Shown here: positions 11,096 through 38,078 of the stretch, piece by piece | Layout of the letters: the number at the start of each line of letters is the position of its first letter | Position numbering within the stretch: position 1 is the stretch's first letter | Source of the DNA: Thermodesulfobacteriaceae bacterium | Lineage (GTDB): Bacteria; Desulfobacterota; Thermodesulfobacteria; Thermodesulfobacteriales; Thermodesulfatatoraceae | Assembly (NCBI GenBank): GCA_015494065.1 | Contig: WGCA01000067.1 | Location: 1-40,040 of the forward strand | DNA: 40,040 bases | Direction of reading: 5' to 3' | Notes under the pieces: model-generated | Told to the model about the DNA's origin: nothing | Seen by the model: the letters and a program-made list of their open reading frames with translations, nothing else | Databases searched by the model: none | Program-made: the position numbers and the translations under genes

Positions 11096-12850
11096 TTAGC
11101 CTGCCTTTTCTAGCTGGAAGGAGTGGTAAAGTTCCCGGTAAAGGGGAGAGGTCTTTAGTAGCTCCTCGTGTCTGCCCTGGGCCACCACCCTTCCCTTTTC
11201 CAGCAACACTAACAGATCCGCTTGTACCACCGTAGAGAGCCGGTGGGCGATGACGATGGTGGTCCGGCCGCGCATGAGTCTTTCAAGGGCCTTTTGCACC
11301 TTCTGTTCTGAAACCGCGTCGAGATGGCTGGTGGCCTCGTCCAAAATGAGGATGGGGGGATTTTTGAGGATGGCCCGAGCGATGGCCAGCCTCTGCCGCT
11401 GCCCCCCTGAAAGGTTAAAACCTTTGTGTCCGAGGACCGTATCGTAACCTTGGGGTAGCTGCTTAATGAACTCGTGGGCGTAGGCGAGCTTGGCGGCGGC
11501 GATCACCTCTTCCCGGCTGGCCTTGGGGTTACCGAAAGCGATGTTTTCGTAAACGGTGGCGTTGAAAAGGACGATGTCCTGAGAAACGATCCCGATGAGA
11601 GCCCTTAAGGAGCCCAGTTCAAACTCCCTTAGATCTGTGCCGTCAAGCAGGATCTTTCCCTGGCTGGGGTCGTAAAAGCGGGGGATTAAGGAGACCAGGG
11701 TGCTTTTGCCCGCCCCGCTTGGGCCTACCAAGGCTACCACCTGGCCCGCAGGGATCTTCAAGTTTATGTCCTGCAAGACGAAATCCTCTCCTTCCCGGTA
11801 CCGAAAATAAACGTGGTCAAAGATCAGGCCTTCTTGCGGGGCTGAGGCCTTTTTTGGTCCGCCTTTTTCCTCAGGGTAAGCGAGGACCTCTTCCACCCTC
11901 TCTAGAGCCGCCGAAGCGTCGTAAAGCCCGGTATAGGCCCGGGAGATACGCCGAAGGGGAGAAAAAATCATCAAAATGGCGGTGAGTACCGAAAAAAAGT
12001 CTCCCGGGGTGATGACACCCCTGATGACCAGGTGTCCCCCGTAGGTAAAAACCAGGGCCCCGCCCAGCCCGGTCATTAAATCCACCAAAAGCCTTGCCCC
12101 CTCGCGGTATTTGGTAACCCGGAGTAGGTAACGTAAATAGCCTTCAAGTTTTTGCCGAAAGCGACGAACTAAAAAATCTTCCTGAAGGTACACTTTTACT
12201 TCACGCAGCCCTTGAAGGCTTTCGGTGACCTGATGGGTCACTTCGGCTATTTCCTGCTGGCCCAGTTTGCGCGCCTTGCGGGCCTTAGTCCCCAATTTGC
12301 GGGCCCCGATGGCCACGGCGGGAAAGACGGTTAAGGCCAGCAGGGCAAGATCAAAACGCCGGTAAAGGGCCACCGCTACCAGAGTGATTACGGTAAGGCC
12401 CTCAAGCATTAAGGTGCGAAACATATCGCCCAAAACCGGCTCAAGGGCGGTAGTATCGTTTATGACCCGCGAGACCAGACGCCCCGAGGTCTCGGCAGAG
12501 ACCTCTTTTAGAGGGAGCCGGAGGATCTTCTGGTAGAGCCGGTAACGCAGGTCGTTTACGAAGCGTAGGGCGGCGAGCCGCATGAGATAGGCCTGGAAAA
12601 AGGCGCTAAGCCCCCTTAGGGAAAAGATCCCGATCACTATCAGGGGAAGGATGTCCAGGTAACGGTAATTCTTTTCGAGAAAGATATGGTCGAGAACCGG
12701 CTTCACCAGCCAGGCCACGGACCCTGAAAATAAAGAAGCCACCAGGCTCAAAAGGAGAGAAACCGAAAGAAGGAACCAATAAGGCCGGGCCAAGAAAAAA
12801 ATCTTTTTAAAAACTGACGGACGGCGCAAAGGAATCACCCCTCTTGACAC
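11096..12850 (-). CDS. msbA: MsbA-like lipid exporter (ABC transmembrane + ATPase)
   Basis: This is a half-size ABC exporter of 584 residues, the normal MsbA length. Residues about 20-310 form a six-helix transmembrane domain. The ATPase domain carries Walker A GPSGAGKST, signature LSGGQRQR, Walker B PILILDEATSHLD and switch His in VIAHRLST. In MsbA proteins this flips lipid A core across the inner membrane; a ceramide-based lipid is an alternative substrate suggested by the neighbours. The D-loop reads SHLD rather than the usual SALD. The GTG at 12850 overlaps the upstream gene by 16 bases and lacks a clear ribosome site. A GTG at 12838, in a GTGA overlap with that stop, is an equally possible start. 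Confidence 0.85.
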   Translation of the reverse strand: MSRGVIPLRRPSVFKKIFFLARPYWFLLSVSLLLSLVASLFSGSVAWLVKPVLDHIFLEKNYRYLDILPLIVIGIFSLRGLSAFFQAYLMRLAALRFVNDLRYRLYQKILRLPLKEVSAETSGRLVSRVINDTTALEPVLGDMFRTLMLEGLTVITLVAVALYRRFDLALLALTVFPAVAIGARKLGTKARKARKLGQQEIAEVTHQVTESLQGLREVKVYLQEDFLVRRFRQKLEGYLRYLLRVTKYREGARLLVDLMTGLGGALVFTYGGHLVIRGVITPGDFFSVLTAILMIFSPLRRISRAYTGLYDASAALERVEEVLAYPEEKGGPKKASAPQEGLIFDHVYFRYREGEDFVLQDINLKIPAGQVVALVGPSGAGKSTLVSLIPRFYDPSQGKILLDGTDLREFELGSLRALIGIVSQDIVLFNATVYENIAFGNPKASREEVIAAAKLAYAHEFIKQLPQGYDTVLGHKGFNLSGGQRQRLAIARAILKNPPILILDEATSHLDAVSEQKVQKALERLMRGRTTIVIAHRLSTVVQADLLVLLEKGRVVAQGRHEELLKTSPLYRELYHSFQLEKAG

Positions 12851-13602
12851 GAAAGTATTTTTTGGGCCAGCCGGAGGTCCGCCTCATCGTCCACGTCCAC
12901 CGCGGCCCGGGCGAAGGGAAGTACCACGGGAAAGACCCTGCAACCCAGGACTTTGCTGGCCAGTGAAAAGGCTTCCGCCAGGGAAAGCCGGCCTAACAGA
13001 TACCGTAAAAGCGGACCCGGCCCAAAGGACCATACCACTTTTAGGGGATTTTTACGTCTGTCTTCCACTTCCCGCCAGAAATAAAGGGCCTTCTTTACTT
13101 CTTCCCCCGCCAAAAAATAAAGGTTGGCGGAACAAAAGCGGTCTTCCTTTAGGCGGTAGGTGGTACGGGAGGCTTCTGGATAGGCGTTTTTGACCAGAGA
13201 AAAGGGCACTACCCCTACCCCCAGCGCCCCTTTGGCAGCCCTGGCCTCTTTGACGAAAAAGGAAACAATCTCTTCGGTCAAAAGGACGTGGTCGGCCGTG
13301 GTGAGGAAAAGGGGCCAGGTGGCTATCTCTTCCAGGGCCAAAAAGACGCTAACGCTGGGAGAGGTGGCCTGCGGTAGAAACTTGAAAGAAAATGACGGAT
13401 AGGCTTCCTTCAGGACCGAGGCCAGTTTCGGGGGGCCGGAAACGTAGATCTCTTCAAAGAATGAGACGTTTTTTAGGACCTCGAAGACCCTTTCAAACAT
13501 GGTCTTGCCGCAGACCGGAAGCATGACCTTGTAAGGGACGGCCTTACCTTGAACCAGGGGACTTTTTCGCCGCCTTTCACCCGCCAGCAGCAGGGCCTTC
13601 AT
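12835..13602 (-). CDS. MobA-like nucleotidyltransferase
   Basis: This 255-residue protein has the nucleotide-diphosphate transferase fold. The N-terminal ALLLAGERRR replaces the usual GxGxR loop, followed by the substrate-binding Lys in YKVMLPVCGKTMFERV, the metal-site TTADHVLLTEE and a C-terminal DVDDEADLRLAQ. Such enzymes couple a phosphorylated alcohol or sugar to CTP, GTP or another NTP. It starts at ATG 13602 behind AAAGGAG, one base after the stop of the GNAT-type gene, and overlaps the MsbA-like gene. The pairing suggests a role in lipid head groups rather than in molybdopterin maturation. The substrate cannot be read from sequence. Confidence 0.7.
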   Translation of the reverse strand: MKALLLAGERRRKSPLVQGKAVPYKVMLPVCGKTMFERVFEVLKNVSFFEEIYVSGPPKLASVLKEAYPSFSFKFLPQATSPSVSVFLALEEIATWPLFLTTADHVLLTEEIVSFFVKEARAAKGALGVGVVPFSLVKNAYPEASRTTYRLKEDRFCSANLYFLAGEEVKKALYFWREVEDRRKNPLKVVWSFGPGPLLRYLLGRLSLAEAFSLASKVLGCRVFPVVLPFARAAVDVDDEADLRLAQKILSCQEG

Positions 13603-13603
13603 C

Positions 13604-14722
13604 TCAAAGCTCCTTTTCGTAAATACGATACACTTTGTAGCGTCTGGCGCCCAGGGCCTCGGCTAAACGACACATCCGGCGGTTGTCTTCAAGGATCCAG
13701 GAAAGCTCCAGGGCCTCCACCCCTCTCTTCAAAAGGGCTTCCTTGGCGTCCCTTATGAGCCGTAGAATAAGGAGCGGCCCCACGAGACGGCGCTGATATT
13801 TTTGTTTAACCCCCATCAGGACCACCCGGGCCCTCCTGGGAGGCCTGAATTTAAGACGCCAGAGGAGTTTTAAGATTCCCGCCGGGAAAAGGCGGCCGTC
13901 CAGCTCTTTGATGAGTTCGTTAAAATCAGGAAGGATGGCTATAAAGGCCGCGGCCTCGCCGTCTACTTCGGCGATGCGCACGTAATCTTCCGGGACCAGA
14001 TATTTGAGACTCTTGCCAAAATAGAGGTAATCCTCCCGGGTAAAAGGGATAAAACCCCAGTTCTGGGACCAGGCGTCGTTAAAGATAGCAAAGATCAAGG
14101 CCAGTTCCTCTCCCAGGGCTTTTTTAGAAATGGTACGGATCTTTACGTGGTGAGAGCTTTTGGGGATCAGGCGCTCAACCCGGGCCAGGGTCTCTTCCGT
14201 CCGAGTCATGAGATAGGCCCAGAGGTCCTTGGCCTTTTGGTAACCCAGGGCGGCTAAGTGGGTCTGATAATAAGGCCGGGCATGTCCCATGAGAAAGGTG
14301 GGAGGTGTCTCAAAACCCTCCACCAGGAGACCACATTCCTGGTTGATGGAAAAATTGAAAGGACCAAGGATTTTCTTAAGACCCCTGGCGCGTAAAAAAC
14401 CCTCTGCTACGTCCAGAAGGGCGGCGAAGACCGCCTGATCGTCGATTGCTTCTAAAAAACCGAAATGCCCCTCCGGTCCGTAACGGGCCAGATGGAGCCG
14501 GTTCACCTGGGCGCTTATCCTCCCCACCGGGACCCCGTCCTGGTAGGCCAGAAAAAGACACGCCTCACCGTATTTAAAAAAGGGGTTTCGGGAAGAGAGA
14601 AATTCCTTACGTTCCCAGATAAGGGGCGGCACCCAGGCAGGATCCTCTTGGTAAATCCGCCAGGGAAGCCTGATAAAGGCCTCAAGATCTTTTCTATTTT
14701 CTACTTTTTTTACCTGGACCAT
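13604..14722 (-). CDS. GNAT-fold protein, candidate bacterial ceramide synthase
   Basis: This 372-residue soluble protein has a GNAT-like layout. It opens with EAFIRLPWRIYQEDPAWVPPL, a conserved-looking GPFNFSINQECGLLVEG in the middle, and the acceptor-side PPTFLMGHARPYYQTH. This matches the YghO-like family to which I recall the Caulobacter ceramide synthase bCerS belongs, and the whole ceramide gene set lies 8 kb away, so N-acylation of the sphingoid base is a reasonable proposal. I could not align it to bCerS. It heads a minus operon with a nucleotidyltransferase and an MsbA-like exporter, and diverges from another lipid operon with only 60 bases between starts. A generic acetyltransferase is the alternative. 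Confidence 0.6.
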   Translation of the reverse strand: MVQVKKVENRKDLEAFIRLPWRIYQEDPAWVPPLIWERKEFLSSRNPFFKYGEACLFLAYQDGVPVGRISAQVNRLHLARYGPEGHFGFLEAIDDQAVFAALLDVAEGFLRARGLKKILGPFNFSINQECGLLVEGFETPPTFLMGHARPYYQTHLAALGYQKAKDLWAYLMTRTEETLARVERLIPKSSHHVKIRTISKKALGEELALIFAIFNDAWSQNWGFIPFTREDYLYFGKSLKYLVPEDYVRIAEVDGEAAAFIAILPDFNELIKELDGRLFPAGILKLLWRLKFRPPRRARVVLMGVKQKYQRRLVGPLLILRLIRDAKEALLKRGVEALELSWILEDNRRMCRLAEALGARRYKVYRIYEKEL

Positions 14723-14782
14723 AGCGCTCTAGTTTAAACGAGAATTGCGAAAAACCCTATGGAGAGCTATGGTGCGGGTAAG

Positions 14783-15526
14783 ATGAAAGCCGTCATTCTG
14801 GCTGCTGGCCAAGGAAAAAGGCTTTTGCCTCACACTAAAGACCGCCCCAAATGCCTGGTGCCGGTCGCAGGGCGTCCTATCCTGGAATGGGAGATTTTAG
14901 TCTTGTTGTCCCGGGGCGTAAAAGAAATAGTGATTATGACCGGCTACCGCGCCGACCTGGTGGAAGAATTTTTGAATCAGCGCTTTGCGGGTTACCCTAT
15001 TCGCACCCACTACAACCCTGATTACGCCACCACGGACAATCTCTACACCTGCTGGCTGGCCGGCACCGAAATGACCGAAGACTTCCTTCTTATGAACGGA
15101 GACGTCTTGATCGAGCCGGAAATCTTGACCCGTCTGCTCAAAGAGGCCAGAGCTCCAATTACCCTTACCGTTAACCGCAAAGACACGTACGACGAAGACG
15201 ACATGAAGGTCATAACCAGCGGGAAAAAACTTCTGCGGGTGGGAAAGAACCTTTCCCCCTCGGAGGTAAACGGTGAATCTATTGGTCTGCTGGCCATTTT
15301 AGGGGAGGGGCCAGCCATTTTCCGGGAAACAGTCGCCCGTATTATTTCCGCCCGGGACCCTACCAAACGCTGGTTCCTTTCCGCCATAGATGATATAGCC
15401 AGAAAGGGGCTAGTCTGGGTCTGTGATATTACTGGGCTTTACTGGTGTGAAATAGATTATCCCCAAGACCTTGTCATGGCAGAAAAAGTAGCCTCAAAAA
15501 TCAAAGAAGACCTCGGCCTTACATGA
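14783..15526 (+). CDS. Sugar- or polyol-phosphate nucleotidylyltransferase
   Basis: This 247-residue enzyme has a textbook nucleotidyltransferase start, MKAVILAAGQGKRLLPHTKD, then RPKCLVPVAGRPILEWEI (substrate Lys) and LLMNGDVLIEPE (metal Asp). It ends in EIDYPQDLVMAEKVA, a pattern shared with LicC-like and inositol-1-phosphate cytidylyltransferases. It should make an NDP-activated head-group precursor such as CDP-glycerol, CDP-choline or CDP-inositol. An in-frame ATG at 14759 exists, but the start at 14783 aligns with the family. It overlaps lptF by ATGA, linking head-group activation to the export permeases. Confidence 0.75.
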   Translation: MKAVILAAGQGKRLLPHTKDRPKCLVPVAGRPILEWEILVLLSRGVKEIVIMTGYRADLVEEFLNQRFAGYPIRTHYNPDYATTDNLYTCWLAGTEMTEDFLLMNGDVLIEPEILTRLLKEARAPITLTVNRKDTYDEDDMKVITSGKKLLRVGKNLSPSEVNGESIGLLAILGEGPAIFRETVARIISARDPTKRWFLSAIDDIARKGLVWVCDITGLYWCEIDYPQDLVMAEKVASKIKEDLGLT

Positions 15527-16569
15527 TTTTGACGGCTTATGTCAGGCGTCAGATCCTAAAGTCTTTTGCCCTCTTTCTCTTTACCCTCACCTTCATCTTC
15601 GGGGTTTACATGTTGGCCCGTTACCTAGCCCAGGCCGCGGAGGGGGAGATCCCCACCGCTGTTATCCTAAAACTCGTCTCTTTGCGGGTACTCATTGCCC
15701 AGGAGATAATCCTGCCTACCACCTTTTATTTTGGTGTCCTCATAGGGGTCAACCGACTCTTTCGCAATGCGGAAATGGTGGCCATGTTTGCCTGTGGCTT
15801 CGGAACCAAACACTTGCTGCGGGCCTTCTTACCCCTGACCCTGGTTCTTTTTTTGACCGTAGCCTCCCTTTCCCTTATAGTTCGCCCCCTGGCCTGGGAA
15901 AAATTTTATTCTTTAAAAGAAGCTGCAAGCCGGCGTTTCGCCCTCAAACGTTTAAAGGCCAAAATGTTTTATGCTTTACCCAAAGGTGGCGTCTTTTTCG
16001 CCCAAAGACTCGATCATAAAACGGGCACCGCTTACCAGGTATTCATCTACGTACGCCGGAACGGAAACGTAAGGGTCATTAGGGCTAAAGAGGCCTTAGA
16101 AAAGAGAACAAAGGGCAGAATATACCTGCTTTTGAAAGAGGGCCGGCAGTACGAATTTCAAGAAGGGGGGCTGATCCTGGTCTCCGAGTTTGAATCCTTT
16201 ACCTTTCCCGTGGAAGAAAAGGCAAAGGAAAGCAGAGACCGCTTAAAGGCCTGGCCTACCCCAAGACTTTGGTATGCCAAGGGTAAAAAGGCCCTGGCCG
16301 AACTCCAGTGGCGCATCTTGGCCCCGCTGGGAGTCCTGATTTTAGCCAGTCTGGGGCTCGCCCTGGCCCCTACCACTCCCAGAAAGACCACGGTAAAGCC
16401 CTTTGTCTGGGCCCTTTTTTTCTTCATTCTTTATTTTTACGGGGTGGCCTCCCTCAAAAAACTGGTAGCCCAGGGGAGTTTCCCCACATTACCAGGTCTT
16501 TTCAGTGTACCCCTGGCCCTGGCCGGGGTTACCCTGGTCTCTTTTTGGTATAACTGGCGGCTTAAATGA
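15523..16569 (+). CDS. lptF: LptF/LptG-family permease (first copy)
   Basis: This inner-membrane protein of 348 residues has the LptF/G layout. Three transmembrane helices lie at about 12-35, 55-78 and 95-120. A periplasmic beta-jellyroll region (about 125-250) contains FFAQRLDHKTG and YEFQEGGLILVSEFESF. Three more helices follow at about 260-345. LptF and LptG with LptB extract lipopolysaccharide from the inner membrane and push it onto the periplasmic bridge. It is coupled by ATGA overlaps to the nucleotidyltransferase before it and to lptG after it. The lptF/lptG labels are by order only. A dedicated role in exporting another lipid is possible. Confidence 0.85.
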   Translation: MILTAYVRRQILKSFALFLFTLTFIFGVYMLARYLAQAAEGEIPTAVILKLVSLRVLIAQEIILPTTFYFGVLIGVNRLFRNAEMVAMFACGFGTKHLLRAFLPLTLVLFLTVASLSLIVRPLAWEKFYSLKEAASRRFALKRLKAKMFYALPKGGVFFAQRLDHKTGTAYQVFIYVRRNGNVRVIRAKEALEKRTKGRIYLLLKEGRQYEFQEGGLILVSEFESFTFPVEEKAKESRDRLKAWPTPRLWYAKGKKALAELQWRILAPLGVLILASLGLALAPTTPRKTTVKPFVWALFFFILYFYGVASLKKLVAQGSFPTLPGLFSVPLALAGVTLVSFWYNWRLK

Positions 16570-17636
16570 AAACATTTGACCGGTATCTCCTAAAAATCTT
16601 GCTTCGTTTCTTCCTGATGGTGGCCCTGGGGCTGACGCTTCTCTTTGATCTGTTTGAGTTTTTAAACCAGCTTTCCCGGGTGGGTACCGGTTCCTACCAC
16701 CTCAAAAAGGCCCTCTGGTACGTGCTCCTTACTAGCCCCCATAAGCTATACGTGCTCCTGCCGGTCTTAAGCCTTCTGGCGGTGCTTTTGGCCCAGGGCC
16801 AGCTGGTAGACCGCAACGAAAGTCTGGCCCTTGAAGCGGTAGGCTTCTCCAGGACCAGACAAATCCTGGTTTTTGCCCTGGCGGTCTTTACACTGGGACT
16901 TGGTTGGTGTGGGCTTGAGGAAACTTTTTTCAAAAAGGCCGAGAGCAAGGCCTGGCAAATCCGCGCCAGGGCCCTGGCCTCCCAGAAGTTCACCCCCTAC
17001 GGGGAGGGTTTTTGGACCAAAAGGGGAGAGACGTATCTCAGGGTGGAAAAGGTCCTGGATGACGGTCTGATGGAAGGGATCGAAATCTTTTGCTTTGAGG
17101 GCAAGGAGCTCAAAAGTTACCTTTTTGCCCCCATGGGTAAGGCCGATAAGGGTAAATGGCTCCTCTGGAAGGTCAGGGAAAATCTCTTCGGGCCCCAAGA
17201 GGTTAAGGAAAAATTTTATCCTCGCCTTTTTTGGCAAGCCCCGATCCCGGCGCAGGAACTGAGTAGGCTGGCCCTCCCCTTAGAATTCCTGGACGCCCAA
17301 ACCCTGTGGCACTACCGGCTGATCTTTAAGGCCGGGGGGCAGGACGTGTACCGCTACACCCTGGCCCTGTGGGAGCGGTTGACCACCCCTTTTTTGGTCT
17401 TGGCCATGGGGCTCCTGGCCCTAAGCTTCGCCACGAGCCCCCTTAAAAGGAAAAAACCGGTGCTTACCCGTCTGCTGGGAGGCCTTTTCGGGGGTCTCTT
17501 TTTCTACCTCTTGCGGGAAGCCGTAACCCACACGGGAAGGGTCTACGGCCTCTCCCCCCCTTTGGTAGCCCTTGGTCCCGTTTTCCTGGTATTGGGCCTG
17601 GCCCTCTGGCGTTTCAAAAAAGCGGCTCGGGCCTAA
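16566..17636 (+). CDS. lptG: LptF/LptG-family permease (second copy)
   Basis: This 356-residue partner of the preceding permease has the same plan. Its N-terminal helix MKTFDRYLLKILLRFFLMV is followed by LPVLSLLAVLLAQGQL and the cytoplasmic coupling segment NESLALEAVGFSR, which in Lpt systems contacts LptB. The periplasmic domain covers about residues 125-265 and three C-terminal helices follow, with RLLGGLFGGLFFYLLREA in the middle one. It begins in an ATGA overlap with the first permease and ends 23 bases inside the convergent phosphatase gene. No lptA, lptC or lptD is present in the window. Confidence 0.85.
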   Translation: MKTFDRYLLKILLRFFLMVALGLTLLFDLFEFLNQLSRVGTGSYHLKKALWYVLLTSPHKLYVLLPVLSLLAVLLAQGQLVDRNESLALEAVGFSRTRQILVFALAVFTLGLGWCGLEETFFKKAESKAWQIRARALASQKFTPYGEGFWTKRGETYLRVEKVLDDGLMEGIEIFCFEGKELKSYLFAPMGKADKGKWLLWKVRENLFGPQEVKEKFYPRLFWQAPIPAQELSRLALPLEFLDAQTLWHYRLIFKAGGQDVYRYTLALWERLTTPFLVLAMGLLALSFATSPLKRKKPVLTRLLGGLFGGLFFYLLREAVTHTGRVYGLSPPLVALGPVFLVLGLALWRFKKAARA

Positions 17637-18489
17637 AAGAGGCCCCGTCCCAAACAAAACTCTGAAATACAAAAGTCCCTTTTTGGTCGTCTATACGGAA
17701 AAGGAAAAATCTTGATTTTTTTGTAGGATTTGAACCCAGATAAGTAAGGGAGGAGACCCCAAAGACAGGGGTCCTGCCCCAGAGGGTGTCAAGCTCAAAC
17801 CGGCCAACCCGGTGGGTGTGCCCGTAAAGGACAAGCTCTACCCCCTCCTTCACCAGGATTCTTTGTAAGGCCAGCGCGTCCTTTAAGGCCTTGCGTTTGG
17901 AAACCACCCCTTTGAGAGGTGGGTGATGCAGATAAAGCACCCGGAAAAAATCCCTTTTGCGCAACCAGGCCAAGGTCTGCGCCAGTCTTTCCAGTTGTTT
18001 GAGCCCAAGCCGCCCGACGGCCCAAGGAGGGATGTTAGGGCAGGCGGTACTAAGCCCCACCAGGGCCAGCCTTCCTAGAACCCGCACCCGAGGGAACCGT
18101 TCCGTAAGGGGTCCTTCCCCCTCAAGATAAGCGGCCCACTTTCCGTAGGTGGCCGAAAAATCCTCTGGTGCGTAGGAATCGTGGTTGCCAGGGGCTATGC
18201 CTACCTGCTCAGGGCTACCCAGGCACTTCAAAAAGGAAAGGGCCAAGGTGAACTCCTCAGGCAGCCCCAGGTGGGTAAGGTCGCCGGTGACAATGATCTG
18301 GTGAGGCTTGAGCCGCTTTACCTCCTCACAAAGAGCAAGAAGGGGGGCTAGCCCGTGTTTCTTGCCCCGTAAAAGTCGCCAGCGGAGGTAACCGATGAGC
18401 CGGCGCCCCGCTAGCTTTCGCCAAGGAGGGGCAAGGCTTGCCAAATGCCAATCAGAACAATGAACTAAGAGCTTTTCCCTGGTCAACAT
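17614..18489 (-). CDS. Calcineurin-type metallophosphatase
   Basis: This 291-residue protein has all the metal-binding motifs of the family: DWH near the N-terminus (HCSDWHLAS), GD in VTGDLTHLG, GNHD in APGNHDSYAP, the HH pair in LYLHHPP and GHTH in LYGHTHRVG. No signal peptide or membrane segment is seen, so it should be cytoplasmic. The family includes cyclic-nucleotide phosphodiesterases and lipid-related enzymes such as LpxH and LpxG. Set inside the lipid island, a phosphomonoesterase or pyrophosphatase acting on a lipid or CDP intermediate is a fair guess only. Its ATG lies one base from a possible GTG start of the divergent CDP-alcohol transferase gene. Confidence 0.8.
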   Translation of the reverse strand: MLTREKLLVHCSDWHLASLAPPWRKLAGRRLIGYLRWRLLRGKKHGLAPLLALCEEVKRLKPHQIIVTGDLTHLGLPEEFTLALSFLKCLGSPEQVGIAPGNHDSYAPEDFSATYGKWAAYLEGEGPLTERFPRVRVLGRLALVGLSTACPNIPPWAVGRLGLKQLERLAQTLAWLRKRDFFRVLYLHHPPLKGVVSKRKALKDALALQRILVKEGVELVLYGHTHRVGRFELDTLWGRTPVFGVSSLTYLGSNPTKKSRFFLFRIDDQKGTFVFQSFVWDGASFRPEPLF

Positions 18490-18514
18490 AGTGCTATCCG
18501 TTAAAATAGAAAAG

Positions 18515-19696
18515 ATGGCCCGTTACGTCTATTTTTACGGCAAAGACCAAGTAAGAATCTGGGGGCTTACCGTCCCAGAACGGTTAAAAAGACTCCTCGG
18601 CCCCCAGGTCAAAGAACTAAAAGACCCTTCGCAACTCACCCCCGAGGACGAAGTCTTTATCTTCAACGTGGACTACCTGCTTGACGACCGTCTGGTCAAA
18701 TATCTTGGTACCCAGCCAGGTCTTTTGGTTTACCAAAAAGAAGGCCCCAAAGAAATCCCTCTTGCCGCCTACGTTTCGGCCCCCGTTTTTGCCGAGACCC
18801 TGGCCTGTTTTGAAGGCCGGGGCCCTTTGCCTCAAAGGATCAAAACCCAGCTCCTTGGAGAAATTTCGGCAGCTTTTTTTAAACAGCTGCGCAAATTTGA
18901 ACCGCCCTTTGCCCTCCCGGTCTCGGAGAAAAACCGGGATTTCCTTGAAAGGCGCCTTTATGATTGGTCTTACAAAGGGGTCACTGACCTGGTGACCAAA
19001 TGGCTGTGGCCCCATCCAGCCCGAAGAGTAGTCAAGTGGTGCGTCAAGCTTGGCCTTAAGCCCAACCATGTAACTTTTTTGGGTTTCATCCTGGTCGTCC
19101 TAGCCGGTTACCTCTTTTATCAGGGACGTCTAGGGCTGGGCTTAATAGCGGCCTGGCTTATGACCTTTTTTGACACGGTAGACGGAAAACTGGCCCGGGT
19201 GACGGTCACTTCAAGCAAATTTGGCCATTACTTTGACCATCTCATTGATCTCATTCACCCCCCCATCTGGTATATACTCTGGGGCGTCGGGGTTGAGCGA
19301 TGGGGGCTCACCAACCCGCTGCCTGTCAGTCTGCTGGGCACCTTGCTTGTAACCGGCTACGTCCTAGGAAGACTGGTAGAAGGGGCGTTCATGGCCCGTT
19401 TTGGCTTTGAAATTTTTTGTTGGCGGCCTTTTGATTCCTACTTTCGTCTTATCACCGCCCGGCGTAACCCCTGTCTCATCATCCTGACCGTAAGTTACCT
19501 CCTCGGCCAACCCCAGTATGGTCTCCTGGCCACCACCTGCTGGACGGTCTTTACTAGTTTGGTCCTCCTGTTCCGCTTAGCTCTGGCCTGGTGGCAAGGG
19601 AGGAGAAGGCCCCTTACGCCCTGGCTGGCTGAAATAGAAAAATACCGTGCCCACAAGTTGGCCCTCAAGTGGTTTACCAGAGAAGCCACCGCATAG
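18515..19696 (+). CDS. CDP-alcohol phosphatidyltransferase with extra N-terminal domain
   Basis: This membrane enzyme exchanges the CMP of a CDP-activated compound for an alcohol. The signature DGxxAR(x)nGxxxDxxxD is complete across DTVDGKLARVTVTSSK and FGHYFDHLID, and about six hydrophobic segments lie in the C-terminal 220 residues. The first 150 residues are not part of the family core. They are soluble and include EDEVFIFNVDYLLDDRLV, which faintly recalls a degenerate nucleotidyltransferase; bifunctional cytidylyltransferase/transferase proteins are known for di-myo-inositol-phosphate synthesis in thermophiles. The ATG at 18515 is preferred over the GTG at 18491, though neither has a strong ribosome site. 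It leads the operon with the lipid kinase, Tam41-like gene and lptB. The head-group substrate is unknown. Confidence 0.82.
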   Translation: MARYVYFYGKDQVRIWGLTVPERLKRLLGPQVKELKDPSQLTPEDEVFIFNVDYLLDDRLVKYLGTQPGLLVYQKEGPKEIPLAAYVSAPVFAETLACFEGRGPLPQRIKTQLLGEISAAFFKQLRKFEPPFALPVSEKNRDFLERRLYDWSYKGVTDLVTKWLWPHPARRVVKWCVKLGLKPNHVTFLGFILVVLAGYLFYQGRLGLGLIAAWLMTFFDTVDGKLARVTVTSSKFGHYFDHLIDLIHPPIWYILWGVGVERWGLTNPLPVSLLGTLLVTGYVLGRLVEGAFMARFGFEIFCWRPFDSYFRLITARRNPCLIILTVSYLLGQPQYGLLATTCWTVFTSLVLLFRLALAWWQGRRRPLTPWLAEIEKYRAHKLALKWFTREATA

Positions 19697-20511
19697 CCGA
19701 AGCCGGTCTGGTCATCAACCCGACCTCCGGGCGCAATCTCCGGGAGGCAAACCGCCTGCTGGCGCTCGCCCACCAGGCCGGGCTTGATCACGCTGAGGGA
19801 AAGGACTTTGACTCACTTAAGGAGGCCACCTTCACCCTTTTGGCCCAAAAGAAAAAGATTTTGCTGGTTAGCGGGGGAGACGGGACTTTGTCCGCGGTCT
19901 TAACCACTTGTCTCAAGGCGCGCCGTCTTCCCATACTAGCGGTATTGCCCGGGGGGACCACCAATCTTATTGCCTGGGACGTTAGCCGCCCTAAAGGGCA
20001 GCTTAAAATATTTAGGTACTTTTTGGCTGGAAAACCCCCGGCAGTTGAGATAAGACGGGCACTTAAGATCAAGTCTTACGAGATTTACGGTATGTTTTGC
20101 GCGGCAGGGATGCTGGCCGAAGGGGTAAGACGTTATAATCTAAATCGCCAAGAAAAGGGCCTGCGCGGGCTAAGAAACGCCCTCCCCGTAGCCGTAAGCC
20201 TTTTAAAGGAGGTTTTTTTTCGGGGTCGCCCCGGCTTTCCTTTAAACACCTGCCCGGCCGCCCCTTTCTCCCTGAATACGGTAATGGTGACCACGCTTGA
20301 GAAGGTGTTTTTACCGCTAAAACCCTTTATCTCCCGCTGTCCTTACTTAAAGGTGGGGTTTTTCCCCGAAAAACTCCTACCTTTTAAAGTCTCCTGTCTT
20401 CCCAAGATCGAGCTTAAGACCTCCACCCTGGCGGTGGACGGGGAGATCTTGACCGGGCAGGCCACGTTTACCGTAGAAACCGGACCGGAGGTGATCTTTT
20501 ACCGGTGGTAG
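19669..20511 (+). CDS. DAGK-fold lipid kinase, candidate ceramide kinase
   Basis: This is an ATP-dependent lipid kinase of 280 residues in the diacylglycerol/sphingosine kinase superfamily. It shows GLVINPTSGRN at the start, the nucleotide loop VSGGDGTLSAV, then LPGGTTNLIAWDV, and a C-terminal VDGEILTG strand typical of the YegS/DgkB domain. Beside ceramide genes, phosphorylation of ceramide or a sphingoid base is plausible; Caulobacter has a distinct bacterial ceramide kinase in its sphingolipid locus. Diacylglycerol is the alternative substrate. The GTG start overlaps the upstream gene by 28 bases and no better start precedes the NPTSG motif. It overlaps the next gene by seven bases. Confidence 0.8.
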   Translation: MVYQRSHRIAEAGLVINPTSGRNLREANRLLALAHQAGLDHAEGKDFDSLKEATFTLLAQKKKILLVSGGDGTLSAVLTTCLKARRLPILAVLPGGTTNLIAWDVSRPKGQLKIFRYFLAGKPPAVEIRRALKIKSYEIYGMFCAAGMLAEGVRRYNLNRQEKGLRGLRNALPVAVSLLKEVFFRGRPGFPLNTCPAAPFSLNTVMVTTLEKVFLPLKPFISRCPYLKVGFFPEKLLPFKVSCLPKIELKTSTLAVDGEILTGQATFTVETGPEVIFYRW

Positions 20512-21431
20512 TCTCAAGGGACCTGCTGAGCTATCTGGCAGAATACGCGGTGAGGGAACCAGAGCCAGCCCTTTTGCCCCTCATCGGGGAATTCAAAAAC
20601 ACCTACCCCAATCTCCGGGCCATATTCTTTTACGGTTCCTGTCTCCAGGAAAAGGACCTGACCCAAAGTTTGGTCGATCTCTACCTCTTGACAAAAGATT
20701 ATCGGGGGGCTTACCGCAACCCGGCCCTGGCGCTGGCCAATTATCTCCTGCCCCCCAACGTGTTCTGGGCCTCCCGGGACAGGATAAGGGCCAAATACGC
20801 CGTGATGGCCCTCTGGCATTTAGAAAAGGCCGTAACCCCTAGGTGGTTTCATTCCTATTTCTGGGGGCGTTTTGCCCAGCCCACCGCCCTCATCTGGTGG
20901 AAAGACCCCTTCAGTCGGCAAAGGGCCTTGCGGATCCTGGCCCGGGCCGTAGTCACTTTTTTGCAAGAGACCATCCCTTTGGCCCCGCCGCAGGGGAGGA
21001 TAAAAGACCTCTGGCTTACCGGCCTTACCTATAGTTACCGGGCGGAACTGCGGCCTGAATCCCCTAAAAGGCTTCTGGCCCTCTGGGAGAAAAACAAGGA
21101 TTTCTTTAAAGAAGTGACCAAAAGGGCCGTACCTGCCCTTCCCTTTAATATAAATGTGCAGGAAGACCGCTACGTCGCAAAGATACCCGCCAAACTAAGA
21201 AAACTTGCCTATTTTAAATGGTCCCTCAGGATGGTCCAGGGAAAGGTTCTTTCGGTCTTAAGGCTGGCCAAGGCCTGTTTCACCTTTCAGGGTGGGGTAG
21301 ATTACGCCCTCTGGAAGATTGAACGTCACAGCGGCAAGCGCCTGGAAGTGCCTGCGGTCCTGCGCCGGCACCCTTTTCTGGCCCTTATTTTCTGGGGCTG
21401 GCGCGCTTTACTCACCCGGGGGGTGCGTTGA
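20505..21431 (+). CDS. Tam41-like CDP-lipid synthase (CTP:lipid-phosphate cytidylyltransferase)
   Basis: This 308-residue protein would usually be called hypothetical. Its motifs follow the mitochondrial CDP-diacylglycerol synthase Tam41: a nucleotidyltransferase-type FFYGSC with an acidic residue in SLVDLYLL, then AYRNPALALANYL, KYAVMALWHLEKA and SYFWGRFAQPTALIWW (Tam41 has KYGV and AGRLQKP here), and later LTGLTYSYRAELRP. Tam41 turns phosphatidic acid and CTP into the CDP-lipid. The position between a lipid kinase and lptB, with a CDP-alcohol transferase at the operon head, fits kinase-CDP-lipid-head-group chemistry. It overlaps the kinase by seven bases and lptB by one base (TGATG). The match is by eye, so family assignment is good but not certain and the lipid substrate is unknown. 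Confidence 0.62.
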   Translation: MVVSRDLLSYLAEYAVREPEPALLPLIGEFKNTYPNLRAIFFYGSCLQEKDLTQSLVDLYLLTKDYRGAYRNPALALANYLLPPNVFWASRDRIRAKYAVMALWHLEKAVTPRWFHSYFWGRFAQPTALIWWKDPFSRQRALRILARAVVTFLQETIPLAPPQGRIKDLWLTGLTYSYRAELRPESPKRLLALWEKNKDFFKEVTKRAVPALPFNINVQEDRYVAKIPAKLRKLAYFKWSLRMVQGKVLSVLRLAKACFTFQGGVDYALWKIERHSGKRLEVPAVLRRHPFLALIFWGWRALLTRGVR

Positions 21432-22153
21432 TGAAAACCTTGTGGGCACAAGGACTGGAAAAGAGTTTTAAAAAAAGAAAGGTCGTCAAAGGAGTAAGCC
21501 TTGAGGTCCGAAGCGGGGAGGTGGTAGGGCTCCTCGGGCCCAACGGGGCCGGCAAGACCACCACTTTTTATATGATCGCCGGACTACTCAAACCTGAAGC
21601 CGGCAAAATCTGGCTAAACGAGAAAGAGATCACCTCCTTTTCTTTGGCCAAGCGGGCTAAATTGGGGCTGACCTACCTGCCTCAAGAACGTTCGGTGTTT
21701 CGCGAACTGACGGTAGAAAAAAACATCCTCGGGGTCTTGGAGCTCAAAAAATTAACTAAAGAAGAAAGAGAGCAGCGCAAAGAGGCCATTGTCCAAGAAT
21801 TTGGCCTGGAAGAAGTGGCCGGACACAAAGGTTATACCCTTTCAGGGGGTGAGGCCAGGCGGGTGGAGATCGCCCGGGCCGTGGCCGTGGAGCCTGATTT
21901 TATCCTCCTTGACGAGCCCTTCGCCGGGATAGACCCTTTGACCGTAAAAAACCTCCAAAAACTCATCCTGGAACTCAAGGAGAAGGGAATCGGGATCCTG
22001 ATCTCGGATCATAACGTAAGGGAGACCCTTAAAATTTGCGACCGCGCCTACCTTCTCTATCAAGGAGAGATCCTGATTGCCGGCACCGCCCAGGAAATCG
22101 CCCAAGACCAGAAGGCTAGGAATTTTTACTTGGGGCAGGACTTCAATCTTTAA
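21431..22153 (+). CDS. lptB: LptB ATPase of a lipid-extraction transporter
   Basis: This 240-residue ABC ATPase is clearly of the LptB type: Walker A LLGPNGAGKTTTFYMIAG, the Q-loop YLPQERSVF, signature TLSGGEARRVEIARA, Walker B ILLDEPFAGIDP and the LptB hallmark ISDHNVRETL. It powers LptFG. It starts at an ATG sharing one base with the Tam41-like stop (a TTG at 21428 is an alternative) and ends 11 bases inside the convergent glycerophosphotransferase-like gene. In many proteobacteria lptB sits with lptC, lptA and rpoN; here it is instead last in a lipid-head-group operon. Confidence 0.92.
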   Translation: MKTLWAQGLEKSFKKRKVVKGVSLEVRSGEVVGLLGPNGAGKTTTFYMIAGLLKPEAGKIWLNEKEITSFSLAKRAKLGLTYLPQERSVFRELTVEKNILGVLELKKLTKEEREQRKEAIVQEFGLEEVAGHKGYTLSGGEARRVEIARAVAVEPDFILLDEPFAGIDPLTVKNLQKLILELKEKGIGILISDHNVRETLKICDRAYLLYQGEILIAGTAQEIAQDQKARNFYLGQDFNL

Positions 22154-23327
22154 GCCGTGCCTTGGTCCGGGGGTGTTCGCGTAAAAACTGGTAGATGGCC
22201 GCAGCCCCCCGCTGAGCCGCCGTAGTCCCTGGTTCGTCATAAAAGGTGTAGCGAAAGGCCTCCCTTTGCTTGGGTTCATAAAGAGATTGAAGGGTAAAAG
22301 CCCTTTTAAGACAGCGGGCGAAATCCCTTTCAAAATCCTCCACCACCTGGCCAAAGGTCCAGTGAAGATAATAAGGGTTACCCTGCCATTTGACTCCGTG
22401 GGCGTTTAAATAAATGCAGGGGCGCGGCTTCCAAATAAACTCGTATACCTGACTGCTCACGTCCCCCAGATAAATGTCGGCGGCTAGCATATACGTCATA
22501 TCTACCGAGGCCATGCTGCCCAAATCGATATGGATGTTGGGGCAGCGGTAAAATCTTTTGGGAATTCGGCGGGCCCGGTGTCTGAGCCTCCTCCTGAAAA
22601 GCACCACGTGGGGGGCAAAGATGAGGTTGTATTCCCGGTGCTTGGCAAAAAATTCGAGCACCTTAAGCCCCCATTTGTTCCAGGAGGCCACCCGCTGGTC
22701 AAAATGCGGGTTGTAGACCACGGTGACGTGGTCGTTGGCAAAGATCCTAGGGCGCTGGGGGTGAAGCTTCTCCACCACTTCGAATTTGGGCCAACCCACC
22801 ACGGCGTATTTCCCCTCCTCAAGCAGCCCCAATTCTTTCAGACGGTCCACGTATTTCTGCCCAGGCAACAAAACAAAGTCAAAATATTTGATCTTCGGGT
22901 CAAACCCGCCCTTACGGTCACCGGCACCGTGACGGGTATGGATCATGATCAGGTCTTCCAGACCGAATTTGGTACGCAGGCGCGCACAGTGCCTTTCCGG
23001 CGCCACCAGGACGTCAAGAGTCCTGAAGAACTCAAGGTTCCGGCGAAGGACCATAGTCTTGCGCCCAAAGGCCCAGGTGGAAACGAAAGGATCTAAAAGC
23101 TGGTAATACCAGGGGACAGGGAGTTTGAGAAAACGAGCCTTATGCCCGGGATAAAAAGAGGCTATCTTTTGCGCGAACCTGAGTTCTTCCTCGGTGGCAC
23201 AGGCCACTGTCACGTCCAAGGCTTTCCCATACCGCCTGGATAGTTCAAAGGCGTAAGGGGCGGCGTGGGGCACCTGGTGCGGAAAATAGTGGTTAAAGAG
23301 AAAGCCAACCCTAACTTTGGTTGCCAT
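22143..23327 (-). CDS. CDP-glycerol glycerophosphotransferase-like protein
   Basis: This 394-residue protein has a GT-B-like layout. It has an N-terminal Rossmann half (VGFLFNHYFPHQVPHAAPYA), then IMIHTRHGAGDR, VVYNPHFD and APHVVLF, and the characteristic ADIYLGDVSSQVYEFIWKPR followed by CIYLNAHGVKWQ. That DvSS..yEf..kpRP block is typical of TagB/TagF-type enzymes that transfer glycerol-phosphate or ribitol-phosphate from CDP-polyols. It is last in the ceramide operon, overlapping the GT4 gene by 17 bases. In a Gram-negative this suggests a polyol-phosphate head group on a lipid or surface glycan. The nucleotidyltransferase at 14783 could supply its CDP-donor. The ATG at 23327 is preferred to the TTG at 23342. 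Confidence 0.7.
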   Translation of the reverse strand: MATKVRVGFLFNHYFPHQVPHAAPYAFELSRRYGKALDVTVACATEEELRFAQKIASFYPGHKARFLKLPVPWYYQLLDPFVSTWAFGRKTMVLRRNLEFFRTLDVLVAPERHCARLRTKFGLEDLIMIHTRHGAGDRKGGFDPKIKYFDFVLLPGQKYVDRLKELGLLEEGKYAVVGWPKFEVVEKLHPQRPRIFANDHVTVVYNPHFDQRVASWNKWGLKVLEFFAKHREYNLIFAPHVVLFRRRLRHRARRIPKRFYRCPNIHIDLGSMASVDMTYMLAADIYLGDVSSQVYEFIWKPRPCIYLNAHGVKWQGNPYYLHWTFGQVVEDFERDFARCLKRAFTLQSLYEPKQREAFRYTFYDEPGTTAAQRGAAAIYQFLREHPRTKARLKD

Positions 23328-24471
23328 AGACCAAACTTTCAAAAACTTTGAGGTAATCTAAAACCACCTTTTCCACTTTAAAATCTTCAGCCCTTTTCTG
23401 CAAAAAACTGGCTGGTGGTGGGTTTTCAAGGGTATCCAGGATGGCTTCCGAAAGGGCCTGGTAATCCCCCACCGGCACGAGTCGACCGTAACGGCCGTTT
23501 GCCAGAACCTCGGCACAACCCCCGAAACAGGCGGTACTCACCACCGGACAGCCTACCGCCAGGGCCTCCAGTAACACCCCTGGCAGACCTTCGTAACGTG
23601 AAGACAGGACGAAAACGTCGGCCCGGGCCATAAAAGACCAGGGATTTTCGAAAAAACCCGGCAGAGAAACACAGTTTTCAAGCCCTAGCTTTTTGACCAA
23701 ACGCCACAAAGCCCTCCTTTGCTTCCCCTTCCCCAGGATCACCAGTCTGGCCTCCCTTTTCTGCCTCAAAAGAGAAAAGGCCCGGATCAGGGTGGCAAAA
23801 TCTTTCTGAGGAGAGAGTCTGCCTGCTCCAAGTATCAAAGGGACCTCTTTTGCCTGAAACCAGGGGTGGGGAGGAATTTCCTTAGCTTTTTGGCGAATCT
23901 CTTCTAGCTCAAGGGGGTTGTAGATAACCGCCGTGCGTTCCGCAGGGAAGGGCATGAGGTCCAGGGCGTCTTTAAGAATACTTTCGCAGACCCCGATCCA
24001 AAAATCAGCCTGGGGATAAAAGCGCCTGATGGCTTTGAGTTTTAAAGAATTAAGCCACCTTTTAGGCCAGGTGCCCGCATCTTTTAGGGCCCCAGAAATG
24101 TGGTTGCTCAAACGTAAGACCAGGGGACACGGGCGGCCAGCCCGTTGCCAAGCCCTAACCGCCGGAAGGTGGGCGTGGTTGGCCCCGGAAAGAAAGACAT
24201 CAAGCCTGTTACGGGCCAAATAAGCCGCCAGCTTGGGGACAACCAGCCTGAGACGGAGCCGCCTTTTAAGCCATCCTCCTAAAGCAGGCACCCCTAAGGG
24301 GACCAGGTTCAACGGAAGCCCCTTCACCTTCTTAAAAAGTGGCCCCCTGGGCTCAATAATTAGAAGGTCTACCTGGTGCCCATAGCTCAGCAGCCTCTCA
24401 ATGAGGGTGACTACCCGTCTGGTGGCCCCTCCGCCGGTGAGTCCGTAAAGAAAGACGCCTATTTTCATCAA
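23311..24471 (-). CDS. Glycosyltransferase family 4
   Basis: This 386-residue enzyme has the GT-B fold. The acceptor half opens with FLYGLTGGGATRRVVTLIERL. The donor half has ILGAGRLSPQKDFATLIRAF, PGFFENPWSFMARADVFVLSS and the retaining-GT signature SRYEGLPGVLLEALAVGCPVV. It should add a sugar from a nucleotide-sugar donor to a membrane lipid or glycan on the cytoplasmic face. It is coupled to serine palmitoyltransferase by an ATGA overlap, so glycosylation of a ceramide is the natural proposal; glycosyl-ceramides are known in several Gram-negative lineages. The sugar and acceptor cannot be told from sequence. Confidence 0.88.
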   Translation of the reverse strand: MMKIGVFLYGLTGGGATRRVVTLIERLLSYGHQVDLLIIEPRGPLFKKVKGLPLNLVPLGVPALGGWLKRRLRLRLVVPKLAAYLARNRLDVFLSGANHAHLPAVRAWQRAGRPCPLVLRLSNHISGALKDAGTWPKRWLNSLKLKAIRRFYPQADFWIGVCESILKDALDLMPFPAERTAVIYNPLELEEIRQKAKEIPPHPWFQAKEVPLILGAGRLSPQKDFATLIRAFSLLRQKREARLVILGKGKQRRALWRLVKKLGLENCVSLPGFFENPWSFMARADVFVLSSRYEGLPGVLLEALAVGCPVVSTACFGGCAEVLANGRYGRLVPVGDYQALSEAILDTLENPPPASFLQKRAEDFKVEKVVLDYLKVFESLVYGNQS

Positions 24472-25643
24472 GCAAGGGCGGCAAAGGCCTCGGAGATAGC
24501 CGCAATCTGGGCCGGGGTATGGGCGGCTGAAACGCTGGCCCGCAGGAGGGCCTCACCGCCGGGGGTGGCGGGAGGAAGGACCATGTTTACGTAAACCCCC
24601 CTTTCCAGCAACCCATACCAGGTCTTTAGGGCCTTTTCCGGCTGGCGAAAACGCACCGCCACGATGGGGCTTGGCTCCGGCCCCAGCTCAAACCCCAGTT
24701 CTTTAAGGCGCCCGTAAAGCTGGTAAGCGTTCTGCCAGAGCCTTTCCTTGAGCTCCGGCCTCTCTTGTATGATACGTAAAGCGGCCCGGGCCGCCGCAAT
24801 GTTGGCCGGGGAAAGAGAGGCCGTAAAGACATAAGGACGGCTGGCGTACCTCAAAAGTTCCAGTTCTTCGTAATTGCTGGTACAGTAACCCCCGATGGAG
24901 GCCAGGCTCTTGCTGAAGGTGCCTACGATAAAGTCTACCTTTTCTTCTACCCCGGCCTCTTCCGCCAGCCCCCTTCCCTTCTCGCCCAAAACCCCAAGGG
25001 AATGGGCCTCGTCTACCAGGAGATAGGCTTCGTATTTTTCTTTGAGGTGAGCGATCTCTGCAAGGGGCGCCCGGTCTCCCAGCATGCTGTATAGCCCCTC
25101 CACCACGATGAGGATGTTGGCGGAAGGGTTCTTTTCCCGCAAACGCCTTAATTTCTTTTCGAGGTCTTCCAGGTCGTTGTGCCGGAAACGGTAAACCGGC
25201 ACCCCCCCGAGCCTGGTACCGTCGTAAATGCTAGCGTGACAATCAGCGTCAAGGAGGACCAGGTCGTCTCGCCCAACCAGGGTGGAAAGGACCCCTAAAT
25301 TGGCGGCGTAACCCGTGGTAAAAACAATGGTGGCCCTGCGCCCAAAAAATTCCGAAAGTTCCTGTTCCAGGGCCACGTGACTGTGGTAAGTACCGTTGGC
25401 CATACGTGACCCGGTGGTACCGGTACCTTCGGCCTTGATCGCCGCACAGGCGGCCTCGATGCAGGCTTTATCAAAGGTAAGGCCAAGATAATTATTGGTG
25501 CCCGCCAGGATGACCCTTTGGCCGTTCACGATGGCTTCGGTAGGTGAGATGATCTTTTCAATCACTACGTTGAAGCCACCGAAGAAGGCCCTTACCTGAT
25601 CTAATTGCGCAGCAAGTTTGCTAAACTTATCAAAGATGCCCAT
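24468..25643 (-). CDS. spt: Serine palmitoyltransferase
   Basis: This PLP enzyme condenses serine with an acyl thioester to make 3-ketosphinganine, the entry step to sphingolipids. At 391 residues it has the alpha-oxoamine synthase fold, with the stacking His136 in DADCHAS, Asp211 and His214 in LVDEAHSLGVLG and Lys245 in GTFSKSLASIGGY. Spt-like features include GTNNYLGLTFD, SRMANGTYHSHVALE and YCTSNYEELE. The spacing of these residues matches the Sphingomonas enzyme (recalled as 159, 231, 234, 265). It is directly preceded by an acyl carrier protein and a reductase, without other biotin genes, which argues against 8-amino-7-oxononanoate synthase. It overlaps the acp gene by 14 bases. Confidence 0.85.
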   Translation of the reverse strand: MGIFDKFSKLAAQLDQVRAFFGGFNVVIEKIISPTEAIVNGQRVILAGTNNYLGLTFDKACIEAACAAIKAEGTGTTGSRMANGTYHSHVALEQELSEFFGRRATIVFTTGYAANLGVLSTLVGRDDLVLLDADCHASIYDGTRLGGVPVYRFRHNDLEDLEKKLRRLREKNPSANILIVVEGLYSMLGDRAPLAEIAHLKEKYEAYLLVDEAHSLGVLGEKGRGLAEEAGVEEKVDFIVGTFSKSLASIGGYCTSNYEELELLRYASRPYVFTASLSPANIAAARAALRIIQERPELKERLWQNAYQLYGRLKELGFELGPEPSPIVAVRFRQPEKALKTWYGLLERGVYVNMVLPPATPGGEALLRASVSAAHTPAQIAAISEAFAALA

Positions 25644-25887
25644 GGTCCCCTTCCGTAAGCTTTTCTATCTCCCTTACCAAGTCCCCCACGGTGCGGATTT
25701 CGTTAAGGACGTTTATGGGTACCGTGATATCGAACCTGTCCTCCACCGCCGCGAGAATCTCCATAGCCCTCAGGGAATCAACTTCAAGATCTTTTTCAAA
25801 ACTGGTCTCAGGGGTTATCTCTACCGGGCGGTTCAGTACTTCGGCCAATATTTCTCGAACCGTCTCAAAGATCTCTTCCCGTCTCAT
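25630..25887 (-). CDS. Acyl carrier protein of the ceramide operon
   Basis: This 85-residue carrier has the phosphopantetheine site DSL at Ser38 (LEVDSLRAMEILAAVED) and the usual four-helix pattern. It is not the housekeeping AcpP: the sequence is unusual (MRREEIFETVREIL) and it is fixed between serine palmitoyltransferase and a reductase, overlapping them by 14 and 23 bases. In known bacterial ceramide pathways a dedicated carrier delivers the acyl group to Spt. The long-chain ligase of this operon would load it. Confidence 0.88.
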   Translation of the reverse strand: MRREEIFETVREILAEVLNRPVEITPETSFEKDLEVDSLRAMEILAAVEDRFDITVPINVLNEIRTVGDLVREIEKLTEGDHGHL

Positions 25888-26800
25888 TAGTCACCCATTC
25901 CTTTAAGGCTTTTTCCAAGGGCCAACGGGGCTGCCAGCCAAGGTCTCTGGTTATCTCATCATTAACACAAGTCCAATCGGGGTGGCAAAGCTCAGACACT
26001 TTGTAATGGGAAAAGAGCGGGGCTTTTCCTATTATTTTACTGACCAAAAGGCTTCCATAACCAGCCATTCTTAAAATATTTTCAGGAACGACCACGAGAC
26101 GGGGGGCCTTGCCTGTTATACGGGCCACGATTTCCCGTACCTCAAGCCAGGAATAACCCCTGGGACGCCCGTCGTGCAATTCATAAATTTTGCAAGCTTC
26201 TAGGTCCTTTTCCAGCCAAGAGAGAATGGCTTGACAGAGATCAAAAACGTAGATGAGGGAAAAACGGTTTTCAGGGTCACCCGGAACCGGTAGCACCCCC
26301 TTGAACATAAGCTTTATCAAGGGCGTCAGCCCCTCGTCGTAAGGACCATAGACGGCCGGAGGCCGGAAGACCTGCCAGCACAAAGGGCTTTGCCGAAGCA
26401 AATCCTCGGCCTGTCTTTTGGTGGCAGCGTAAGGGGAAAGATAGGGGTACCTGGCAGCCAGGGAGGAAACATAAAGAAAGCGCTTGACCCCGGCCTGGGA
26501 GGCGGCGGCCACCAGGTTTAAAAAGCCTCTGAGATTGGTGACGGCAAAATCTTCGTAAGAAGTTCCCCTTATGGCACCGGCCAGATGGATTACCGCCTCG
26601 GTCCCGGCCACCAGCCTTTCCAAGGCCTCCGGGCAGGAGAGATCCCCCACGACCCATTCCACCCCGGGAAAAAATCTCTTAAAGGTCTTCAAACGGGCCG
26701 GCCTCACCAGGGCCTTTACCCGTATCCCGGCAGGCAGAAGGGCCAAAAGGTTGCGGCCGATAAAGCCCGTGGCGCCGGTTACTGCGATAGATTTTTCCAT
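25865..26800 (-). CDS. Extended SDR reductase, candidate ceramide reductase
   Basis: This NAD(P)-dependent enzyme of 311 residues has TGATGFIG at the N-terminus, the Ser in YVSSLAAR and the catalytic YAATK pair (Tyr-x-x-x-Lys). It ends with LGWQPRWPLEKALKEWV as in extended SDRs. In Caulobacter-type pathways an epimerase-like reductase (CerR) reduces the 3-keto group of the ceramide precursor. Its place between the ligase and the carrier supports that. A sugar epimerase is the alternative. It starts immediately after the ligase stop (TAAATG) with no gap. Confidence 0.75.
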   Translation of the reverse strand: MEKSIAVTGATGFIGRNLLALLPAGIRVKALVRPARLKTFKRFFPGVEWVVGDLSCPEALERLVAGTEAVIHLAGAIRGTSYEDFAVTNLRGFLNLVAAASQAGVKRFLYVSSLAARYPYLSPYAATKRQAEDLLRQSPLCWQVFRPPAVYGPYDEGLTPLIKLMFKGVLPVPGDPENRFSLIYVFDLCQAILSWLEKDLEACKIYELHDGRPRGYSWLEVREIVARITGKAPRLVVVPENILRMAGYGSLLVSKIIGKAPLFSHYKVSELCHPDWTCVNDEITRDLGWQPRWPLEKALKEWVTNETGRDL

Positions 26801-37997: not shown

Positions 37998-38029
37998 AGG
38001 GCCCCCACCTGTCTTCAGAGTCTTCTGGC

Positions 38030-38058
38030 CTTATAGCCTGTTCACGCTCGCTATGCAA
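38030..38058 (-). promoter_or_regulatory. Predicted promoter of the ClC pair
   Basis: On the minus strand TTGCAT (38058-38053) and TATAAG (38035-38030) are separated by 17 bases. They lie in the 81-base gap between the hybrid kinase and the ClC gene. The -10 box is good and the -35 box is weak. Confidence 0.4.
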
Positions 38059-38078
38059 CAATCCACCTGGAATGACGG

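Follow-up and report, generated by a model that had tools for sequence, protein, structure and literature searches.

The protein encoded at positions 13604-14722 on the minus strand of the window (the 40,040-nucleotide stretch of Thermodesulfobacteriaceae DNA analyzed here) is very probably, as predicted from its sequence, the enzyme that adds the second fatty acid in ceramide synthesis. We are confident that its orthologues are bCerS in Caulobacter (CC_1154/CCNA_01212) and YghO in E. coli, and that it is a predicted GNAT-type N-acyltransferase for the long-chain base made by serine palmitoyltransferase (Spt). This enzyme type is already known in bacteria, and the window protein is an additional representative of it. 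Its gene completes a predicted ceramide pathway in a lineage with reverse gyrase, the Caulobacter-type gene set is now seen in another phylum, and an insertion in GNAT motif A suggests a hypothesis on the acyl donor that can be tested.

Homology to Caulobacter bCerS and E. coli YghO

Four Caulobacter genomes, reached via a Caulobacter S-layer bait, were used for comparison, and each of the four contained exactly one homologue of the window protein, with 43-45% identity over residues 2-372. Pairwise alignment of the window protein with Caulobacter bCerS gave 44% identity over 379 columns (E = 5e-105), and the length of about 370 residues is conserved. Homology together with position points to CC_1154 as the Caulobacter homologue, the genomes compared being other than strain CB15. 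E. coli YghO is 47% identical over 371 residues. These full-length matches bore out the initial annotation, which had likened the protein to the YghO/GNAT-like family that includes bacterial ceramide synthase and had proposed the sequence comparison with Caulobacter bCerS. Padilla-Gomez et al. (2022; PMC9386255) list yghO (ECD_02850, 'aca'), which adjoins spt in E. coli B, as the E. coli counterpart of CC_1154, the acyl-CoA N-acyltransferase that Caulobacter requires for ceramide.

Besides sequence, Caulobacter bCerS shares with the window protein the motif-A insertion and the flanking genes; however, the window host belongs to another phylum and is probably hyperthermophilic, and Caulobacter bCerS lies within a nucleotidyltransferase-lptF-lptG operon, whereas the window gene is divergent from that operon and has an msbA copy downstream. 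An intact E. coli locus reads yghO-aasR-cerR-acpR-spt, genes whose counterparts the window also holds, but K-12 lacks spt and its neighbours at an IS5 insertion, and the head-group genes were unmatched there. The eukaryotic ceramide synthase of the Lag1/TLC type also N-acylates a sphingoid base, so that the net reaction is the same, but is a multi-pass membrane protein unrelated to bCerS. As a separate observation from two E. coli records (L003 and L064), K-12 retains yghO beside an IS5 and lacks the spt-acpR-cerR-aasR-lptFG stretch present there in the other E. coli, and the K-12 annotation of YghO as a 'putative transcriptional regulator' is contradicted by homology.

A Caulobacter-type sphingolipid island in the window

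The features of the island are as follows.

11096-12850, minus: MsbA-type lipid (ABC) exporter; 72% identical to the second MsbA of the genome, a recent paralogue
12835-13602, minus: MobA/CofC-like nucleotidyltransferase, CC_1153 counterpart; 31-32% to the Caulobacter gene, same place
13604-14722, minus: predicted ceramide N-acyltransferase, bCerS (CC_1154/YghO/'aca') orthologue with insertion-type motif A; Pfam, homology, tree
14759-15526, plus: nucleotidyltransferase, CC_1152 counterpart; 49-50% to the Caulobacter gene, same place
15523-16569, plus: LptF-type permease, second copy
16566-17636, plus: LptG-type permease, second copy
17614-18489, minus: metallophosphoesterase, CC_1158 counterpart
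18491-19696, plus: CDP-alcohol phosphotransferase, CC_1159 counterpart
19669-20511, plus: DAGK-type lipid kinase, counterpart of ceramide kinase CC_1160; weak, 26-36% over part
20505-21431, plus: CC_1161 counterpart
21428-22153, plus: LptB ATPase; 350 bits (cut-off 240)
22143-23342, minus: CC_1167 counterpart; weak TagF-like (CDP-glycerol glycerophosphotransferase) similarity
23311-24471, minus: family-4 type glycosyltransferase
24468-25643, minus: serine palmitoyltransferase Spt; NCBIfam NF047599, 608 bits (cut-off 500)
25630-25887, minus: acyl carrier protein AcpR, 85 aa, DSL phosphopantetheine motif; PF00550, E = 3.6e-18
25865-26800, minus: CerR-type reductase, NAD-dependent epimerase fold
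26801-28576, minus: fatty acyl-AMP ligase AasR

The bCerS gene heads a tight minus-strand run, lying 1 bp from the nucleotidyltransferase gene 12835-13602, which itself overlaps the MsbA-type exporter gene by 16 bp. The plus-strand nucleotidyltransferase-lptF-lptG run starts 36 bp away, and after lptG come the metallophosphoesterase gene (minus) and the plus-strand genes for the CDP-alcohol transferase, the lipid kinase, the CC_1161 counterpart and LptB. The spt operon, on the minus strand, has the order aasR-cerR-acpR-spt-glycosyltransferase-22143 gene and, as first noted, holds no acyltransferase gene within 24468-28576. The N-acyltransferase gene should not be called missing, however, since a single conserved island contains both it and the spt operon, at opposite ends. 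The distance from spt is about 9.7 kb in the window versus about 7.4 kb in the Caulobacter locus (L077), where bCerS had correctly been said to lie some genes away.

All five ceramide genes (aasR, cerR, acpR, spt and the bCerS gene) occur in the window together with counterparts of all six Caulobacter phosphosphingolipid (head-group) genes. Window proteins matched the Caulobacter locus at aasR, cerR, acpR, spt, CC_1161, CC_1160, CC_1159, CC_1158, bCerS, CC_1153 and CC_1152, in matching places. In L077 the bCerS homologue comes directly after the LptF/LptG permeases and before two nucleotidyltransferases, the same as the published order CC_1156, 1155, 1154, 1153, 1152; the phosphosphingolipid island is described as CC_1168-CC_1152, and the neighbours of the window gene follow the order published for CC_1165-CC_1152 (PMC11324152). 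By these sequence comparisons, the full Caulobacter-like set of genes for synthesis and export of a ceramide lipid with a phosphate-bearing head is very probably present in the window.

Much the same gene set recurs in three genomes of the same phylum (G161, G117 and G056), in a sister species (G204) the whole island is collinear gene for gene, and parts of it occur on a Roseomonas replicon and on a Diaphorobacter IncP plasmid. The latter, pDCB2 of Diaphorobacter sp. JS3051 (L154), is typed as conjugative IncP and carries a large part of the Caulobacter-type island; the pathway may therefore travel by conjugation.

Proposed pathway and head group

In the proposed pathway, AasR would load a fatty acid onto AcpR, and Spt would condense acyl-AcpR with serine to 3-ketosphinganine, which the bCerS protein would N-acylate at the cytoplasmic face before CerR reduces the product. 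The next steps would be assembly of a phosphoglycerate-like head group, through the kinase, the CDP-alcohol transferase and the nucleotidyltransferases, and export of the lipid by the MsbA and LptBFG copies. This analysis contributes homology, gene order, co-occurrence and clade membership, whereas the reaction, localisation and head-group chemistry are carried over, by analogy, from published Caulobacter work; we infer that the whole scheme holds in the window organism, including which of acylation and reduction comes first and the part played by MsbA and Lpt in transport. Caulobacter bCerS was reported to be a cytoplasmic peripheral membrane protein, with Spt likewise cytoplasmic and CerR periplasmic, which favours acylation before reduction, although an opposing proposal places reduction first (PMC11087976). 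The acylation-first order is adopted here by analogy, as the presumed one for the window organism.

A functional bCerS would also be compatible with an end lipid different from Caulobacter ceramide diphosphoglycerate, a reading that competes with the head-group part only and that we consider quite possible, though somewhat less likely than not. The similarity of the kinase counterpart is weak, and the spt operon contains the extra glycosyltransferase gene 23311-24471, for which no counterpart was found in the Caulobacter locus; on the other side, each of the six head-group genes published for Caulobacter is matched by a window gene in the corresponding place, which argues for the Caulobacter-type head group. 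The glycosyltransferase is also present in sister species, and the lipid may receive a sugar from it. The 22143-23342 protein, 38-39% identical to the gene in the Caulobacter CC_1167 position, is kept in the island across phyla; CC_1167 was termed 'probably unrelated' (PMC11324152), and by similarity the window protein is a candidate transferase of the head-group pathway.

With regard to transport, the window genome (G000) has a second lptF/lptG pair elsewhere (contig C8) and a second MsbA (contig C44, 19294-21015), the paralogue of the island MsbA. In sister species, the MsbA encoded in the island is nearer to that of the window (about 80%) than the window protein's own paralogue is, and thus the duplication predates the divergence of these species. 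The Caulobacter-type island includes LptC2 and the CC_1166 flippase; LptC was seen in the Caulobacter locus, and the window has an MsbA copy instead. One study stated that a flippase or lipid transporter had yet to be identified for this pathway (PMC11087976). The island MsbA, sharing a gene run with bCerS, is possibly a dedicated ceramide flippase.

Co-occurrence with Spt and family tree

We searched 198 genomes of the same phylum with the window protein and with Spt, leaving 197 once the window genome was set aside, at thresholds chosen by eye (about 165 bits or more for the bCerS family and at least 290 bits for Spt). The family was found in 28 of the 30 genomes with a close Spt versus 19 of the 167 others (Fisher p = 3e-19, which is too small because the genomes share ancestry), in line with the expectation that the family co-occurs with spt over many genomes. 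More telling than the p value, spt lies 30-125 bp from the bCerS-family gene in many genomes. In one genome of the genus (G206) Spt is almost identical and bCerS was not found; its contig breaks off within the kinase gene, short of the bCerS place, and we thus read the absence as an assembly gap. In some of the 19 genomes the contig also carries a more distant Spt (e.g., G056 and G006); with 19 of the 47 family-bearing genomes lacking a close Spt, the family at large may act on other substrates.

This bears on the reading that the window protein is a same-family N-acyltransferase for another amine (e.g., an amino-sugar, an ornithine-type or a sulfonolipid base) and stands in the island by chance, which we judge highly improbable. 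Family members lacking Spt in the fetched locus do exist in Bacteroides, Prevotella, Ensifer, Shinella and several families of the same phylum. However, in a tree of 81 members, each marked for whether its fetched locus contains Spt, the window protein fell into a clade (support 95/87) with Caulobacter, E. coli, Pseudomonas, Sphingomonas, Roseomonas, Diaphorobacter and the island-bearing genomes of the phylum, a clade tied to Spt loci; it did not cluster with GNAT proteins of organisms lacking spt, the outcome that had been named as speaking against a ceramide role. For all but one of the clade members without a visible Spt, the absence can be put down to a short or partial contig, the K-12 IS5 site or the end of a plasmid record; the exception is G003 (84% complete), where the Spt search found none at all. 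The Spt-less members outside the clade include those of Bacteroides and Prevotella, and Bacteroidota sphingolipid genes are scattered (PMC11334938). Moreover, a search of the window genome found no second homologue, so that its Spt pathway would be left without an acyltransferase if this protein served another amine.

Domain structure

The bCerS gene is an uninterrupted open reading frame of 372 codons (372 aa), and Pfam places a GNAT domain (Acetyltransf_1, PF00583) at residues 211-358 in the C-terminal half (E = 4.7e-10, 40.2 bits, cut-off 20.7). That domain would fit an ordinary small-molecule or protein GNAT acetyltransferase, as would the best solved-structure profile matches, each of them a weak match to a small acetyltransferase (E = 0.004 or worse), but conservation of the full length with bCerS and of the lipid-gene surroundings across phyla leaves that assignment next to no credence. 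Searches of the PDB with the single sequence and with a profile gave nothing beyond weak GNAT matches, and none of the NCBIfam models and solved structures searched covers the bCerS-like family. A PF13480 profile run against the window genome matched other genes and not this one, and no relatives were found in the viral contigs searched. The two halves of the bCerS orthologue matched each other weakly by profile (P = 0.014), only a weak hint that the GNAT fold may be duplicated internally, and a single-sequence AlphaFold model had a mean pLDDT of 33.

Motif-A insertion and the acyl donor

The segment G304-E339, GNAT motif A (CoA-binding), has 36 residues in the window protein and its clade versus 32 in most other members, that is, a 4-residue insertion. 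Many proteins of the non-insertion type show the canonical Q/R-x-x-G-x-G/A loop (as in EYRKRGIE and similar sequences), and the insertion type has it in altered form. When the count was limited to members linked to Spt or acpR/aasR, acpR or aasR was nearby in 13 of 14 insertion-type proteins (the window protein counted among them, as having acpR/aasR) versus 1 of 26 non-insertion proteins; the insertion type is essentially one clade, so the association is close to a single evolutionary event and by itself no proof. The non-insertion proteins (Spt-bCerS-CerR operons in many genomes of the phylum, Streptomyces and Rubrobacter) are of the same family, 36-43% identical and likewise directly beside spt, but they lack the insertion and have no acpR/aasR nearby.

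From this pattern, insertion-type bCerS enzymes may use acyl-AcpR; among the papers searched, none tested the acyl donor. A fuller proposal, which we put forward as speculative and rather unlikely, is that their CoA-binding loop was rebuilt to take the acyl chain from acyl-AcpR instead of acyl-CoA, so that the pathway runs on its own carrier, in a hyperthermophile that is possibly a source of phosphosphingolipids in hot marine sediments.

Host and distribution

Reverse gyrase is a mark of hyperthermophiles. The window genome encodes a full-length one (contig C12, 2976-6392; 1307 bits, cut-off 472), and a hyperthermophilic or strongly thermophilic host is therefore likely. The island is patchy: all or part of it occurs in five of the eight genomes of the genus (G000, G202, G203, G204 and G206), and the other three, each 99% complete, have neither the bCerS gene nor a close Spt. 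Both were likewise absent from every genome seen of a neighbouring family (f2). Excerpts from a study of hot (40-80 C) marine sediments at Milos report phosphate-headed sphingolipids as up to 40% of bacterial lipids and attribute them to bacteria, with no producer named in those excerpts (PMC5572230). The window island is a candidate source of these lipids. Finally, at the contig end, positions 38001-40040 (a sensor kinase gene) have a G+C content of 35% versus about 53% in most of the window, and this is possibly a foreign segment.
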